A stretch of 35,456 nt of DNA from an uncultured Lachnospiraceae bacterium (GTDB taxonomy: Bacteria > Bacillota > Clostridia > Lachnospirales > Lachnospiraceae): assembly GCA_946631935.1 (NCBI GenBank), contig CAMPAP010000145.1:1-35456 (forward strand), read 5' to 3'. Position 1 is the first letter of the stretch, and each line of letters begins with the position of its first letter. This document shows positions 10,917-16,775 of this stretch, piece after piece. A program made the translations under genes and the position numbers. The notes under the pieces were generated by a model. That model saw only the letters and a list, made by a program, of their open reading frames with translations. It was not told where the DNA came from and did not search any database.

Positions 10917-11285
10917 ATGGATATAAGAGAACTTACATGCATCAGATGTCCCATAGGATGCCAGATAAAGGTTGAGATGGAAAACGGTGAAGTAAAGTCC
11001 GTAACCGGTAACAGCTGCCCGAGAGGTGAAGAATATGCAGTTAGTGAAGTTACGCACCCGTCAAGGATCGTAACATCCCTTGTCAGGATAAAGGGCGGTG
11101 AGAGACCTGTTGTTTCGGTTAAGACGGCATCTGATGTTCCCAAAGAAAAGATGATGGACGTTATTTCCGCACTTAAAGGTATAGAGCTTACAGCACCTGT
11201 GCATATTGGCGATGTGGTCATAAAAGATGTTGCCGGATGCGGAGCTGATGTAGTTGTTACTTCGGATATACCGGAAGGAGAATGA
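10917..11285 (+). CDS. DUF1667 domain protein
   Basis: [26 protein letters not shown]...[19 protein letters not shown], cysteine pattern of DUF1667. Start 10917 has an upstream GGAGG. Confidence 0.88.
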
Positions 11286-11286
11286 T

Positions 11287-12789
11287 ATGAACCAGCAGTA
11301 TATTCTTGCACTTGATCAGGGAACCACAAGTTCAAGGGCGATCATTTTTGATAAGGACTCACATATAAAGGCCATTGCCCAAAAAGAATTTGAACAGTAT
11401 TATCCGCAGCCCGGATGGGTTGAGCATAATCCCAGAGAGATATGGTCTTCGCAGATCTCCGTTGCAAGGGAAGCCATGGCAAACATCGGAATAGGAGCGT
11501 CCGATATAGCAGCAATCGGCATTACCAATCAGAGAGAGACCACCATCGTATGGGACAAAGAAACAGGAGAGCCTGTTTACAATGCCATCGTATGGCAGTG
11601 CAGGAGAACCTCGCAGATGATCGACAGGATAGTGACTGCGGGGCATTCCGATATGATAAGGGAAAAGACAGGTCTTGTCCCTGATGCGTATTTTTCTGCC
11701 AGCAAGATCGCATGGATCCTTGAGAATGTGGACGGTGCCAGAGAGAAAGCTGAAAAGGGAAAGCTGATCTTCGGAACCGTGGATACATGGCTTATCTGGA
11801 ATCTTACCGGAGGTCTTGTCCATGTAACTGATTATACGAATGCGGCAAGGACCATGCTTTTCAATATCCATACACTTGAATGGGATAAGGATCTGCTGGA
11901 TCTTTTCAATATCCCTTCGTCCATGCTTCCTGCTGTTAAGCCCAGCAGTTATCAGTACGGTTATTCAAGCGAGAAGGTCATGGGAGGATGGATCCCCATT
12001 GCGGGTGCTGCCGGTGACCAGCAGGCCGCTCTCTTCGGACAATGCTGTTTTGACAAAGGTGATGTAAAAAATACATACGGAACAGGATCGTTTATCCTGA
12101 TGAATACCGGAGACAGGCCGGTTGAATCTTCACACGGACTTCTTACCACCATTGCGGCATCCACATCGGAAAAACCCGAATATGCCCTTGAGGGGTCGGT
12201 TTTTGTGGCAGGCGCTGCGGTGCAGTGGCTCAGGGACAGCATGAGAATGGTAAAGACATCGGCCCAGACCGAAGAATATGCAGATAAGGTATCGGATAGC
12301 GGAGGAGGGTATGTTGTTCCTGCTTTTACGGGACTGGGTGCACCCTACTGGGATCAGTATGCAAGGGGAACGATCGTCGGTATCACAAGAGGTACCACAA
12401 AGGAACATTTTATCCGCGCCACTCTTGAATCCATTGCATACCAGTCCTCGGATGTTTACAGGGCAATGGAAGAGGACCTGGGAGTTTCCCTTAAGGAGCT
12501 TAAGGTTGACGGAGGAGCTTCCGCCAACAACTTCCTCATGAAATTCCAGGCAGATCTTGTGGGCTGTAATGTAAGAAGACCCAAATGCATTGAGACCACA
12601 GCCATGGGAGCCGCATATCTTGCGGGGCTTGCCGTCGGATATTTTAAGGATAAGGATGAGATACGTGCAAAATGGGAGCTTGGAAGGACCTTTGAACCGT
12701 CTTTAGACAAAGCGGATGTGGAGGCACTCATGAAAGGCTGGCACAGGGCAGTAAAATGTGCACGCGTTTGGAGCAGCCCGGAAGAGTAA
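11287..12789 (+). CDS. glpK: Glycerol kinase
   Basis: [63 protein letters not shown]. Confidence 0.98.
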
Positions 12790-12826
12790 TTTTTGCCTTA
12801 TATTCAATATATTGGATTTTTTGTGG

Positions 12827-12832
12827 TATAAT
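12827..12832 (+). promoter_or_regulatory. Extended -10 promoter of EAL gene (TGGTATAAT)
   Basis: TGG-TATAAT at 12824-12832; no good -35, but an extended -10 is present. Confidence 0.6.
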
Positions 12833-12920
12833 GGTTTTGGTCATAAAGTGCCGTTGGGGATTGTGGCAATATGTATGACCAAGGGGGTAAACGGCGGTAT
12901 ATGCGCCGGTATGAGCACTG

Positions 12921-14993
12921 ATGCATGACAAAATATCAGTAATTCGTGATTATCTTAGTGATGTGATGAGGGTCAATTCCGTAGGGGAATTGGAAGCGCT
13001 CACTGAACAGTACAAAAAAATCCTCGGGGAGATCGATGCTCCCCTTAAGTCTTTGTGTGAAGACTTCGATACACTCGGCAGAGAGATAATCTATCTTAAG
13101 ACGGGAAGCGATGACGAAAGAGGAAGCGGTCTTTTGGCCAGCCTCAGTGAAACGGAGAGCGCTGAACTTGAAGAGACGGAGAAGATCATTGCCGAGAATC
13201 TTTTTGATTATCATTTCCAGCCCATAGTAAGCGCTGTGGACGGAGATATCTATTCCTACGAGGTTCTTATGAGACCCCAGGGCAGAATAGTAAGAAGCCC
13301 TCTTCAGGTCCTTAAATACGCAGAACTGAGAAATAAATTAAATGAAATAGAAAGAGCGACATTTCTCAATATACTGGGGATACTTGATGCAGATCCCGAG
13401 GTCAGTCATGAGAAAAAGCTGTTTATCAACTCGATTCCCAAGACCCATGTCTCTGCGGAGGACAGGAAAAAGATCGATGAACTCATGTCTGCACACAGTG
13501 CCAAGCTTGTTGTGGAGCTTACGGAAAAAGCGGAACTTGATGATGTTGAGTATTCCGAATTCAAGAATCATTATGAGTCCATGAACATCGGCACGGCAAT
13601 TGACGATTACGGTACAGGTTATTCCAATGTCCAGAACCTTCTCAGATATATGCCTGATTATGTCAAGATCGACAGATCGCTGTTGAGTGATATTCAGGAT
13701 GATTCAAAAAAGAGGCACTTTGTCAGGGAAATCGTTGACTTCTGTCATGATAACGGTATCCTGGCTCTTGCAGAGGGCGTTGAGACAAGTGAGGAATTAA
13801 GATGTGTCATACTGCTTGGTGTTGATCTTATCCAGGGATTCTATACGGGAAAACCGACACCCAAGCCCGTAAAGTCTGTTCAGTATAAGATCAGGCAGGA
13901 GATAAAAAGCTATGCCCACGAACGCCAGGAAGGCATGGAGTCCAAGGTTTATGTCATGGACATCGGAGAGCATGTTAATCTTGGCAATATGGTCAAGGAC
14001 AAAATGGAATCCATCCTCATTGATAAGAGCGGCGATTTTTCCATCAGCGGAGAAGCGTCTATTGATGCAAGGATGGTCATAGATATTGCGGATAATACCG
14101 AAGTCAATCTTAACCTTGATAATGTAAGGCTGACCAATTCCTGGAAAACTCCCTGCATAGAAATAGGCAGGGGATGCATAGTCAACCTGATCATTAAAGG
14201 CGATAACAGACTCAATTTGGGAGGTATCCGTGTTCCGGAGGAATCTGAATTTGATCTTTCCGGAGACGGTAATCTGGGAATAGTCCTTGACTATGACGAA
14301 TATTTCGGAATAGGAAATGACATGAAATCCGGTCACGGAGATATGAAATTCAACCAGTCCGGACTTCTCAAGGTAGAATCCAACGGAAAGACCGGAATAT
14401 GCATCGGCTCCGGCCTTGGCGGTAAGATAGAACTGAACAAAGGAAAATACATTCTTGAAATGAACAGTGACAGAGCTGTGGGAATGGGATCTTTTGGCGG
14501 TGAAGTTACAGTCAGGATCAAGGGCAGTGATATAAATATCGATCTGAGCAGTATCAAGGGTATAGCCATAGGTTCTGAGGAAGGAAATGCCGATATCGAG
14601 ATAAGCGAGACTTCCACCAAGGTTTATATGAGCGGAAATGACGCTGTATGTTTCGGATCACTTTCCGGAAAGAAAGCTTCTGTATTTTTCCACGATGCAA
14701 GCACCACAATGAATATTCATAACGACAGATGTTCCGGAGTTGCGGCTCTTGACGGAAAGACCGAGTTCAGGATAGAAAGGGCTGCCATGAGGATATATGC
14801 CAAGGGTGAGAACGTTCTTCCCTTCGGCGGCTTTTCGGCGGATTCAGACTGCTACTTTACGGATACCGATGTTACCGTAAAGGTCATGACAGCGGTCAAG
14901 CTTGAAAAGTATCTTGATCCGGGAAGAATGAATGTAACTCACGGAAGCATCAGGATAGTTCTTAACGGATTTGAGTACGAGCTGCTGAAATAG
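12921..14993 (+). CDS. EAL-domain (c-di-GMP phosphodiesterase-type) protein with C-terminal beta-helix-like repeat region
   Basis: EVLMRP, LFINSIP, ELTEKAE, DDYGTGYSN, VKIDRSLL, LAEGVET, QGFYTGKP. Residues ~340-690 are beta-rich repeats resembling carbohydrate-binding beta-helices (Cthe_2159/DUF4353-like). No signal peptide or TM segment. Confidence 0.9.
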   Translation: MHDKISVIRDYLSDVMRVNSVGELEALTEQYKKILGEIDAPLKSLCEDFDTLGREIIYLKTGSDDERGSGLLASLSETESAELEETEKIIAENLFDYHFQPIVSAVDGDIYSYEVLMRPQGRIVRSPLQVLKYAELRNKLNEIERATFLNILGILDADPEVSHEKKLFINSIPKTHVSAEDRKKIDELMSAHSAKLVVELTEKAELDDVEYSEFKNHYESMNIGTAIDDYGTGYSNVQNLLRYMPDYVKIDRSLLSDIQDDSKKRHFVREIVDFCHDNGILALAEGVETSEELRCVILLGVDLIQGFYTGKPTPKPVKSVQYKIRQEIKSYAHERQEGMESKVYVMDIGEHVNLGNMVKDKMESILIDKSGDFSISGEASIDARMVIDIADNTEVNLNLDNVRLTNSWKTPCIEIGRGCIVNLIIKGDNRLNLGGIRVPEESEFDLSGDGNLGIVLDYDEYFGIGNDMKSGHGDMKFNQSGLLKVESNGKTGICIGSGLGGKIELNKGKYILEMNSDRAVGMGSFGGEVTVRIKGSDINIDLSSIKGIAIGSEEGNADIEISETSTKVYMSGNDAVCFGSLSGKKASVFFHDASTTMNIHNDRCSGVAALDGKTEFRIERAAMRIYAKGENVLPFGGFSADSDCYFTDTDVTVKVMTAVKLEKYLDPGRMNVTHGSIRIVLNGFEYELLK

Positions 14994-15038: not shown

Positions 15039-15070
15039 CGGGTTCCTGAAAAGGATCCCGTTTTTTTTAT
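15039..15070 (+). terminator. Rho-independent terminator after EAL gene
   Basis: CGGGTTCC-TGAAAA-GGATCCCG stem (one mismatch) followed by T8. Confidence 0.8.
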
Positions 15071-15117: not shown

Positions 15118-15239
15118 GTTGGGTGTCGTAGGCAGACAAGATTAAGACCCGGGACAGCTTTTTGATAACAGGTCCGAAGCAGCAGACAGTTTTTCTGAGG
15201 AGCTGGGATGAGCTGAACCGGTCGGTACCGGAGGTGGAT

Positions 15240-16775
15240 ATGATCATAAAGATTCTGATGCTGGTGATATTTTTTTCCGTTATGATAGGAGTCGGATTCT
15301 ATTGCAGGAAAAATGCAACGGACGTTAACGGATTTGTCCTTGGCGGAAGAATTGTAGGTCCCTGGCTTACGGCTTTCGCATATGGGACCAGTTATTTCAG
15401 CGCCGTTATATTTGTGGGATATGCGGGACAGTTCGGCTGGAAATACGGAATAGCATCCACCTGGATAGGAATAGGAAATGCGCTTTTAGGTTCAATGCTT
15501 GCCTGGAGAGTTTTGGGCAGAAGGACCAGGATCATGTCGCAGCATCTTGACTCTGCCACCATGCCGGAATTTTTCGGAAAAAGATTTGATTCAAAAGCAC
15601 TTAAGCTTTTTGCCTCTCTGATAGTGTTTGTTTTTATGATCCCATATACCGCATCACTGTATAACGGTCTTTCAAGGCTTTTTGGCATGGCTTTTAATAT
15701 TGATTACACAGTCTGCATCATAGCCATGGCGATACTCACCGGAGTGTATGTTATCGCCGGAGGTTATATGGCGACTGCAATAAATGATTTCATACAGGGG
15801 ATCATCATGCTCTTCGGTATCGTTGCGGTCATAGTTGCGGTGCTTAATTCAAGAGGAGGCTTTCTGTCATCCCTTGAGCAGCTTGCAGAGGTATCTGATG
15901 AAAGCGTGAGCACGGTACCCGGAATATTTAATTCGTTTTTCGGTCCGGATCCCGTTAATCTTATAGGAGTGGTTATCCTTACTTCCCTGGGAACCTGGGG
16001 ACTACCCCAGATGGTCCAGAAATTTTATGCCATCAAATCAGAACAGTCCATTACAAAGGGAACCATTATCTCAACTCTTTTTGCCGGAGTTGTTGCAGGA
16101 GGATGCTACTTCCTGGGAGGTTTCGGAAGACTTTTTTCTGACAGTGTTGATGTCGGAACCCAGGGTTTTGATGCGATAATTCCTGCGATGCTCAGCAGCT
16201 TAAGTCCCGCTCTTATCGGACTTGTTGTGATACTTGTTCTTTCTGCATCAATGTCCACTCTTTCGTCTCTTGTGATCACATCAGCTTCAACGCTGACCAT
16301 TGACTTTATCAAGGGAAACCTTATTAAGGACATGAAAGAAAAAAACCAGGTTCTCTGGATCAGAGTCCTCATCGTTGTCTTCATAGCGATCTCCGTTGTG
16401 CTTGCCGTGATCCAGTACAGATCGAATGTTACTTTCATAGCCCAGCTCATGGGTGTTTCATGGGGAGCCATGGCAGGTGCGTTTCTTGCTCCTTTCCTCT
16501 ACGGGCTTTACTGGAAACGTACAACCAAAGCAGGCTGCGGAGGGTGTTTTATATTCGGTGCAGGATTTATGATCTATAATCTGCTTTTCAGGGGAACGCT
16601 TCCGGTTCTGCTTCAGTCCCCTATCAATGCCGGAGCATTTACCATGCTTGCGGGACTTATAATAGTACCTGTTGTTTCCCTCATCACGGCAAAGCCCGAT
16701 GAAGCAAAGACCGATCAGATATTTGAATGTTATAAGCACAAAAACGAAGTGCCTGTAACACAGTCATTGGAGTGA
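15240..16775 (+). CDS. Sodium:solute symporter (SSS) family transporter
   Basis: Multi-TM protein; FVLGGRIVGPWLTAFAYGTSYFSAVIFVGYAGQFGWKYG. GGAGGTGG Shine-Dalgarno precedes ATG 15240. Confidence 0.93.
   Translation: MIIKILMLVIFFSVMIGVGFYCRKNATDVNGFVLGGRIVGPWLTAFAYGTSYFSAVIFVGYAGQFGWKYGIASTWIGIGNALLGSMLAWRVLGRRTRIMSQHLDSATMPEFFGKRFDSKALKLFASLIVFVFMIPYTASLYNGLSRLFGMAFNIDYTVCIIAMAILTGVYVIAGGYMATAINDFIQGIIMLFGIVAVIVAVLNSRGGFLSSLEQLAEVSDESVSTVPGIFNSFFGPDPVNLIGVVILTSLGTWGLPQMVQKFYAIKSEQSITKGTIISTLFAGVVAGGCYFLGGFGRLFSDSVDVGTQGFDAIIPAMLSSLSPALIGLVVILVLSASMSTLSSLVITSASTLTIDFIKGNLIKDMKEKNQVLWIRVLIVVFIAISVVLAVIQYRSNVTFIAQLMGVSWGAMAGAFLAPFLYGLYWKRTTKAGCGGCFIFGAGFMIYNLLFRGTLPVLLQSPINAGAFTMLAGLIIVPVVSLITAKPDEAKTDQIFECYKHKNEVPVTQSLE

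Follow-up and report, generated by a model that had tools for sequence, protein, structure and literature searches.

Which role could a β-helix play in the cytoplasm when it is joined to an enzyme of c-di-GMP turnover? The question is raised by one gene in the window analyzed here, that is, the whole stretch of 35,456 nucleotides of a contig from an uncultured Lachnospiraceae bacterium. A first-pass annotation, made from the sequence alone, had described this gene as an EAL phosphodiesterase (PDE) fused to a β-helix. It had called the architecture unusual and had proposed that the β-helix senses a cytosolic glycan or precursor or serves as an assembly scaffold.

Gene and domain composition

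The coordinates and the strand of the ORF had been given exactly (Table 1), and the start codon is backed by the aligned N-termini of the orthologues L003-L013. The fusion was intact in the independent MAG L002 (90% identity) as well as in orthologues of 55-60% identity over the full length, and an assembly artefact is therefore excluded. Rfam elements were not found in the window.

Table 1. Features of the EAL + β-solenoid gene and its 3' flank (window positions)
Feature	Position	Strand	Basis
Complete gene, EAL + C-terminal β-solenoid protein, 690 aa	12921..14993	+	ORF, orthologue N-termini
Short helical N-terminal cap, aa 1-76, three predicted helices	12921..13148	+	AlphaFold2 model, profile-profile test
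EAL c-di-GMP phosphodiesterase domain, aa 90-312	13188..13856	+	Pfam, residue alignment
Linker with one helix (aa 322-337), EAL to β-solenoid	13857..13955	+	predicted structure
β-solenoid, about aa 346-660, distant PF14262 (Cthe_2159) match	13956..14900	+	Pfam, AlphaFold2, conservation
C-terminal cap, aa 661-690, short helix and short strands	14901..14990	+	predicted structure
Intrinsic-terminator-like hairpin and T run, 3' of the gene	15040..15058	+	consensus match only

The maximum Kyte-Doolittle value of any 19-residue segment of the protein was 1.04. Since no segment exceeded this value, the protein has neither a transmembrane (TM) helix nor a signal peptide, in agreement with the cytoplasmic location assumed by the annotation. 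Hydropathy maxima were low in nearly all full-length relatives as well.

The EAL domain

The Pfam family EAL (PF00563) matched with E=1.7e-48 (165.5 bits, cut-off 31.3), and all of the motifs that the first-pass annotation had quoted were present. Nine catalytic or metal-binding residues (E114, N170, E199, E202, D228, D229, K249, E285 and Q305) were invariant in 76/76 relatives. Judged from these residues, the window protein is probably a catalytically competent cytoplasmic c-di-GMP phosphodiesterase, also in vivo.

A Foldseek search with the full-length model recovered FimX, LapD and RocR (E about 1e-11 to 1e-13). The best 50 matches listed were all EAL, and for this reason a separate model and a separate search were made for the C-terminal part. 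The EAL domain was recovered by sequence, too. In NCBIfam no equivalog reached its cut-off; EAL equivalogs were found sub-threshold only, and no name for the protein was obtained beyond these. The plasmid search gave matches at the EAL level only.

Fold and distant homology of the C-terminal part

For the full protein (alignment of 76 sequences) AlphaFold2 yielded a mean pLDDT of 88.9 and a pTM of 0.68. The C-terminal 351 aa alone (48 sequences) were predicted as a β-solenoid with a pLDDT of 94.8 and a pTM of 0.92, which supports the β-helix fold proposed earlier. Given the lower pTM of the full protein, the predicted placement of the EAL domain relative to the β-helix is tentative. Long strands were assigned by DSSP at residues 482-497, 508-524, 536-552, 565-580 and 594-609 (pLDDT 94-97). 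The coils comprise about 26-29 aa, and xGIGS/GIGN turns recur. Owing to the variable length of the coils, autocorrelation of glycine and hydrophobic residues across the entire β-helix did not rise above that of shuffled sequences; the evidence for periodicity comes instead from the DSSP strand spacing and the aligned GIG turns.

In the PDB, Foldseek matched the C-terminal part to PL6 lyases, phage tailspikes, GH28 polygalacturonases and AlgG, all of them right-handed β-helices. Among the matches listed, E was at least 0.02 (best 0.02) and TM at most 0.35, none being significant (none with E<0.001). As a fold class the predicted β-solenoid is well supported; we infer its specific relationship and its handedness, which is probably right-handed.

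The distant kinship with Cthe_2159 suggested by the annotation was recovered at the borderline. PF14262 matched residues 364-628 of the full protein with E=1.2e-5 and 25.1 bits (cut-off 25.8), and rose above the cut-off when the C-terminal part alone was searched (28.1 bits, E=1.6e-6). The match spans about 230 of 262 model positions. Among the family members only 2 of 48 reached PF14262 at E<=0.01. A PDB sequence search with the C-terminal profile returned only a chance match, a fimbrial subunit (E=0.014), and no Cthe_2159 structure; this structure was also absent among the best 50 Foldseek matches for the C-terminal part.

A β-helix of this kind apparently occurs within a flagellin, too. The ORF L118:769-1806 (+) starts with a flagellin N-terminus, its residues 246-327 match the β-helix profile (E=1.5e-6), and the Cthe_2159-like β-helix appears to be inserted in the variable region.

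Conservation and selection

In close pairs, dN/dS was 0.04-0.09 for the EAL domain and 0.04-0.10 for the β-helix, ratios that are rough because synonymous sites are near saturation. By these estimates, purifying selection on the β-helix is as strong as on the EAL domain. Every invariant position of the β-helix is a Gly, no charged or aromatic residue is invariant, and the positions conserved to at least 80% are mostly Gly, Ile, Val, Leu or Ser. The strongest polar positions of the C-terminal part were N429 (92%), N682 (91%), N466 (86%), H472 (83%) and D372 (82%), and a conserved polar patch is located at GIGND..xHGxLxFxQ (aa 463-479). The well-conserved N429, N466, H472 and D372 could mark a ligand site.

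Variable N-termini

The proteins of the family occur in three lengths of about 690, 1120 and 1270 aa. Long forms begin with a LacI-type periplasmic-binding-protein-like domain (PBP; Peripla_BP_3) and continue with about 180 aa of intervening sequence; the longest proteins have a GGDEF domain in addition. The LacI-type PBP was present in 60/60 long-form loci and is absent from the window protein, in which the N-terminal cap occupies its place. The GGDEF signature of the long forms was mostly degenerate (GNGEF, GNDEF, GNGEM), with one intact GGDEF (L078). Other N-termini were also found, namely a GGDEF domain in L100 and L106 and, by inspection, PAS-like plus GGDEF-like regions in L134/L135. A GNAT acetyltransferase was combined with the EAL + β-helix core at L097:1516-3882 (-) and L107:409-1743 (+).

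When the N-terminal 76 aa of the window protein were compared with the pre-EAL region of the long forms (profile-profile), only 13 residues before the EAL domain aligned. The N-terminus of the short form is hence better called replaced, and its interpretation as a remnant of the long-form pre-EAL helix was rejected.

Oscillospiraceae short forms are accompanied by a neighbouring gene that combines a LacI-type PBP with a GAF-like and a degenerate GGDEF-like region (L017:7003-9141; L018:5334-7460 (+)). By inspection it also carries an AraC-type HTH, that is, the sensor module is reused in a transcription factor.

Distribution and phylogeny

The scan of genome contigs gave 107 relatives, and 80 loci were kept. 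All of these belong to Clostridia (Lachnospiraceae, Oscillospiraceae, Ruminococcus and Eubacterium), mostly from rumen and gut. In total, the fusion is present at >100 Clostridia loci, mostly of rumen and gut Lachnospiraceae and Ruminococcus. When only the C-terminal profile was used for the search, EAL-fused matches were obtained in about 26/397 genomes of the family, about 13/391 of the class and 3/399 at the phylum level, all three inside the class. Within the window's own genome, which has 11 EALs, this profile matched one protein only.

A search for similar domain architectures had been recommended by the first-pass annotation and showed the fusion to be recurrent. Strong C-terminal-profile matches carried an EAL domain in the same ORF in 118 of 120 cases; this set is redundant, as some genomes may be counted twice, and the constancy of EAL + β-helix is partly ascertained since EAL-linked sequences were the source of the A2 profile. 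The remaining two loci overlap and encode a single long, multi-copy protein that lacks EAL. Weak matches mostly start with signal peptides and represent secreted homologues of the same orders. Truncation of the β-helix was rare; the case seen is L106:1498-3351 (-), a GGDEF-EAL protein that retains no more of the β-helix than about 116 aa at its start.

In the EAL-domain tree the β-helix EALs were separated from the EALs of the same and related genomes with a branch support of 99. The exception within their clade is a very long-branched EAL fragment (L038_8138) whose placement is unsure. At L038:8138-8872 (+) a short and very divergent EAL-like ORF, possibly a degenerate EAL, lies directly downstream of a long form. 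The window short form was placed among the long forms, in a clade consisting mainly of short forms (support 97); in this tree the length labels are unreliable for loci cut at the 5' end. The simplest scenario is a single fusion of EAL and β-helix, after which N-termini were swapped and the window lineage lost or replaced its sensor. The architecture regarded as unusual is real; it is not a single oddity, as might have been supposed, but marks a recurrent monophyletic Clostridia family with a constant EAL + β-helix core.

Genomic context

Our analysis extended the first-pass annotation by the carbohydrate-transport and hydrolase contexts of the relatives and by neighbouring c-di-GMP genes. The window gene is located between a glycerol kinase (11254-12789) and a sodium:solute symporter (15162-16775), the kinase itself lying behind a GlpO-like oxidase, a pyridine-nucleotide oxidoreductase and DUF1667. 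The gene order was the same in L002. Where the contigs of the orthologues L003-L013 extend far enough, an ABC sugar importer, made up of a binding protein and two permeases, lies directly upstream and separates the EAL gene from the glycerol kinase. This importer is missing from the window, where a 131 bp intergenic gap (12790-12920) is found instead, and also from L002. Glycerol signalling, considered for the adjacency of the glycerol kinase, was set aside since the importer intervenes in the orthologues.

The long form of Ruminococcus flavefaciens YAD2003 is followed 48-60 bp on by a LacI-type PBP-GGDEF cyclase, and GH11-esterase and CBM-dockerin-esterase genes are near. At L033:6657-14913 (Ruminococcus flavefaciens) the PBP-EAL-β-helix gene adjoins a PBP-GGDEF cyclase, with xylanase-esterase and dockerin-esterase genes close by; a PBP-GGDEF neighbour was also seen at L032, L036, L039, L045, L046, L048, L064 and L073. 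Overall, a GGDEF or EAL gene was located <=300 bp away in 16/60 long-form loci. The window's genome gave 23 GGDEF, 11 EAL and 1 PilZ matches and hence has, by domain content, an active-looking c-di-GMP network.

Putative function of the β-helix

We assign a probability of about 0.45 to the interpretation that the protein is a cytosolic carbohydrate-linked c-di-GMP phosphodiesterase whose β-helix would be a docking or assembly platform and not a sensor. The N-terminal module would provide the input, usually as a LacI/PBP-type sugar-binding domain and elsewhere as GGDEF, PAS, GNAT or a helical cap, and the β-solenoid would be the unchanging part that defines where the enzyme acts, as a rigid platform for docking or self-assembly in the cytosol. 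Such a platform would hold the PDE at a given partner or surface, so that c-di-GMP would be removed locally and in step with carbohydrate uptake and degradation. As the β-helix is constant and the N-terminal sensor changes, the β-helix is likelier tied to where and with whom the enzyme acts than to the signal sensed. Since the sugar sensor was lost or replaced in the window lineage, activity there may be set by expression, by partners via the helical cap, or by the β-helix. Points against a platform are the polysaccharide-binding fold relatives, several well-conserved polar positions and the C-terminal end, which looks capped; the cap predicted by AlphaFold2 argues against simple end-to-end polymerisation.

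Of the two roles proposed by the first-pass annotation, the scaffold is thus the better supported, and glycan sensing is not the best-supported reading because most full-length relatives carry an N-terminal LacI-type sugar sensor and because conservation of the β-helix is of the Gly/hydrophobic type with few members reaching PF14262. Less likely than the platform, but a serious alternative, is an intracellular glycan sensor: a cytosolic oligosaccharide, glycogen or the precursor of a cell-surface polymer would bind to the β-helix, which would then tune the EAL domain allosterically. The similarity to PF14262, whose characterised member Cthe_2159 binds cellulose and polygalacturonic acid (PMC6712302), the carbohydrate gene context of the relatives and the polar patch speak for this, as do the short forms without LacI sensor, where the β-helix is the sole large candidate sensor. 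The separate LacI-type sensor of most relatives, the 2/48 members with PF14262 at E<=0.01, the lack of an invariant charged or aromatic residue and the best Foldseek E of 0.02, which leaves glycan-binding and lyase β-helices without a significant structural match, count against it. We consider it quite unlikely that the β-helix, taken over once from a secreted protein, is a passive spacer that only stabilises or dimerises the EAL domain. Although the single origin in the EAL tree, the mostly structural conservation and the weak secreted homologues in the same orders would fit, the β-helix was kept, at a dN/dS of 0.04-0.10, while the lineages diverged strongly and the N-terminus was exchanged several times, and truncation is rare (L106, partial β-helix).

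The nearest Foldseek folds (PL6 lyases, GH28 polygalacturonases, phage tailspikes, AlgG) could suggest a polysaccharide-active enzyme, a cytosolic lyase or hydrolase moonlighting with the EAL domain; with only Gly among the invariant residues, no conserved acidic or basic catalytic set, and E>=0.02 and TM<=0.35 among the matches listed, this is very improbable. That the protein is exported and its β-helix works outside the cell like its secreted relatives is barely conceivable: signal peptides are found on those homologues, but the window protein has neither signal peptide nor TM helix, nearly all full-length relatives share its low hydropathy maxima, and the EAL substrate as well as the LacI and GGDEF partners are cytosolic. 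Beyond the platform interpretation, EAL + β-helix proteins might form a new class of spatially organised PDEs, in which a β-helix derived from polysaccharide-binding proteins of the cell surface assembles in the cytosol (or binds an intracellular polysaccharide, e.g. glycogen) and a local c-di-GMP sink, driven by sugar sensors, governs the attachment of fibre-degrading rumen bacteria to plant material; as a whole this is speculative and, in our view, unlikely.

Comparison with known systems

An already characterised family of this kind was not found in open-licence PMC papers or in NCBIfam, and neither an EAL + β-helix nor a LacI-EAL fusion was described in the open-licence PMC papers. The fusion appears to be an undescribed family of EAL PDEs with a constant partner domain. 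A constant β-helix combined with a swappable sugar sensor offers a testable handle on carbohydrate sensing and local c-di-GMP turnover in fibre-degrading gut bacteria.

Bactofilins are cytoplasmic β-helix polymers. They share the cytosolic β-helix with the window protein, and a scaffold role of the latter is proposed by works-like analogy only: the window protein has longer coils (26-29 aa), a C-terminal cap, a fused enzyme and no sequence match, Pfam bactofilin being without a match in the window protein and 48 relatives.

The known EAL phosphodiesterases (PF00563; e.g. RocR, PdeL, YahA, DosP) have the same fold and the same complete catalytic and metal-binding set; unlike the window protein, the EAL proteins matched in the PDB are without a C-terminal β-solenoid. 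The cytosolic LacI-type PBP-GGDEF proteins of c-di-GMP turnover have the same PBP sensor as the long-form relatives, which sometimes carry GGDEF as well, whereas the PBP is missing from the window form. A census of the sensory domains of c-di-GMP proteins mentions Periplas_BP, and its text does not mention a β-helix (PMC8846402). The Cthe_2159 family (PF14262) resembles the window protein in the β-helix, predicted for the latter, in repeated Gly-Ile-Gly turns and the borderline profile match. However, that family is secreted, whereas the window protein is cytosolic, fused to EAL and free of a secretion signal, and presents an unusual case of a surface-protein fold relocated to the cytosol.
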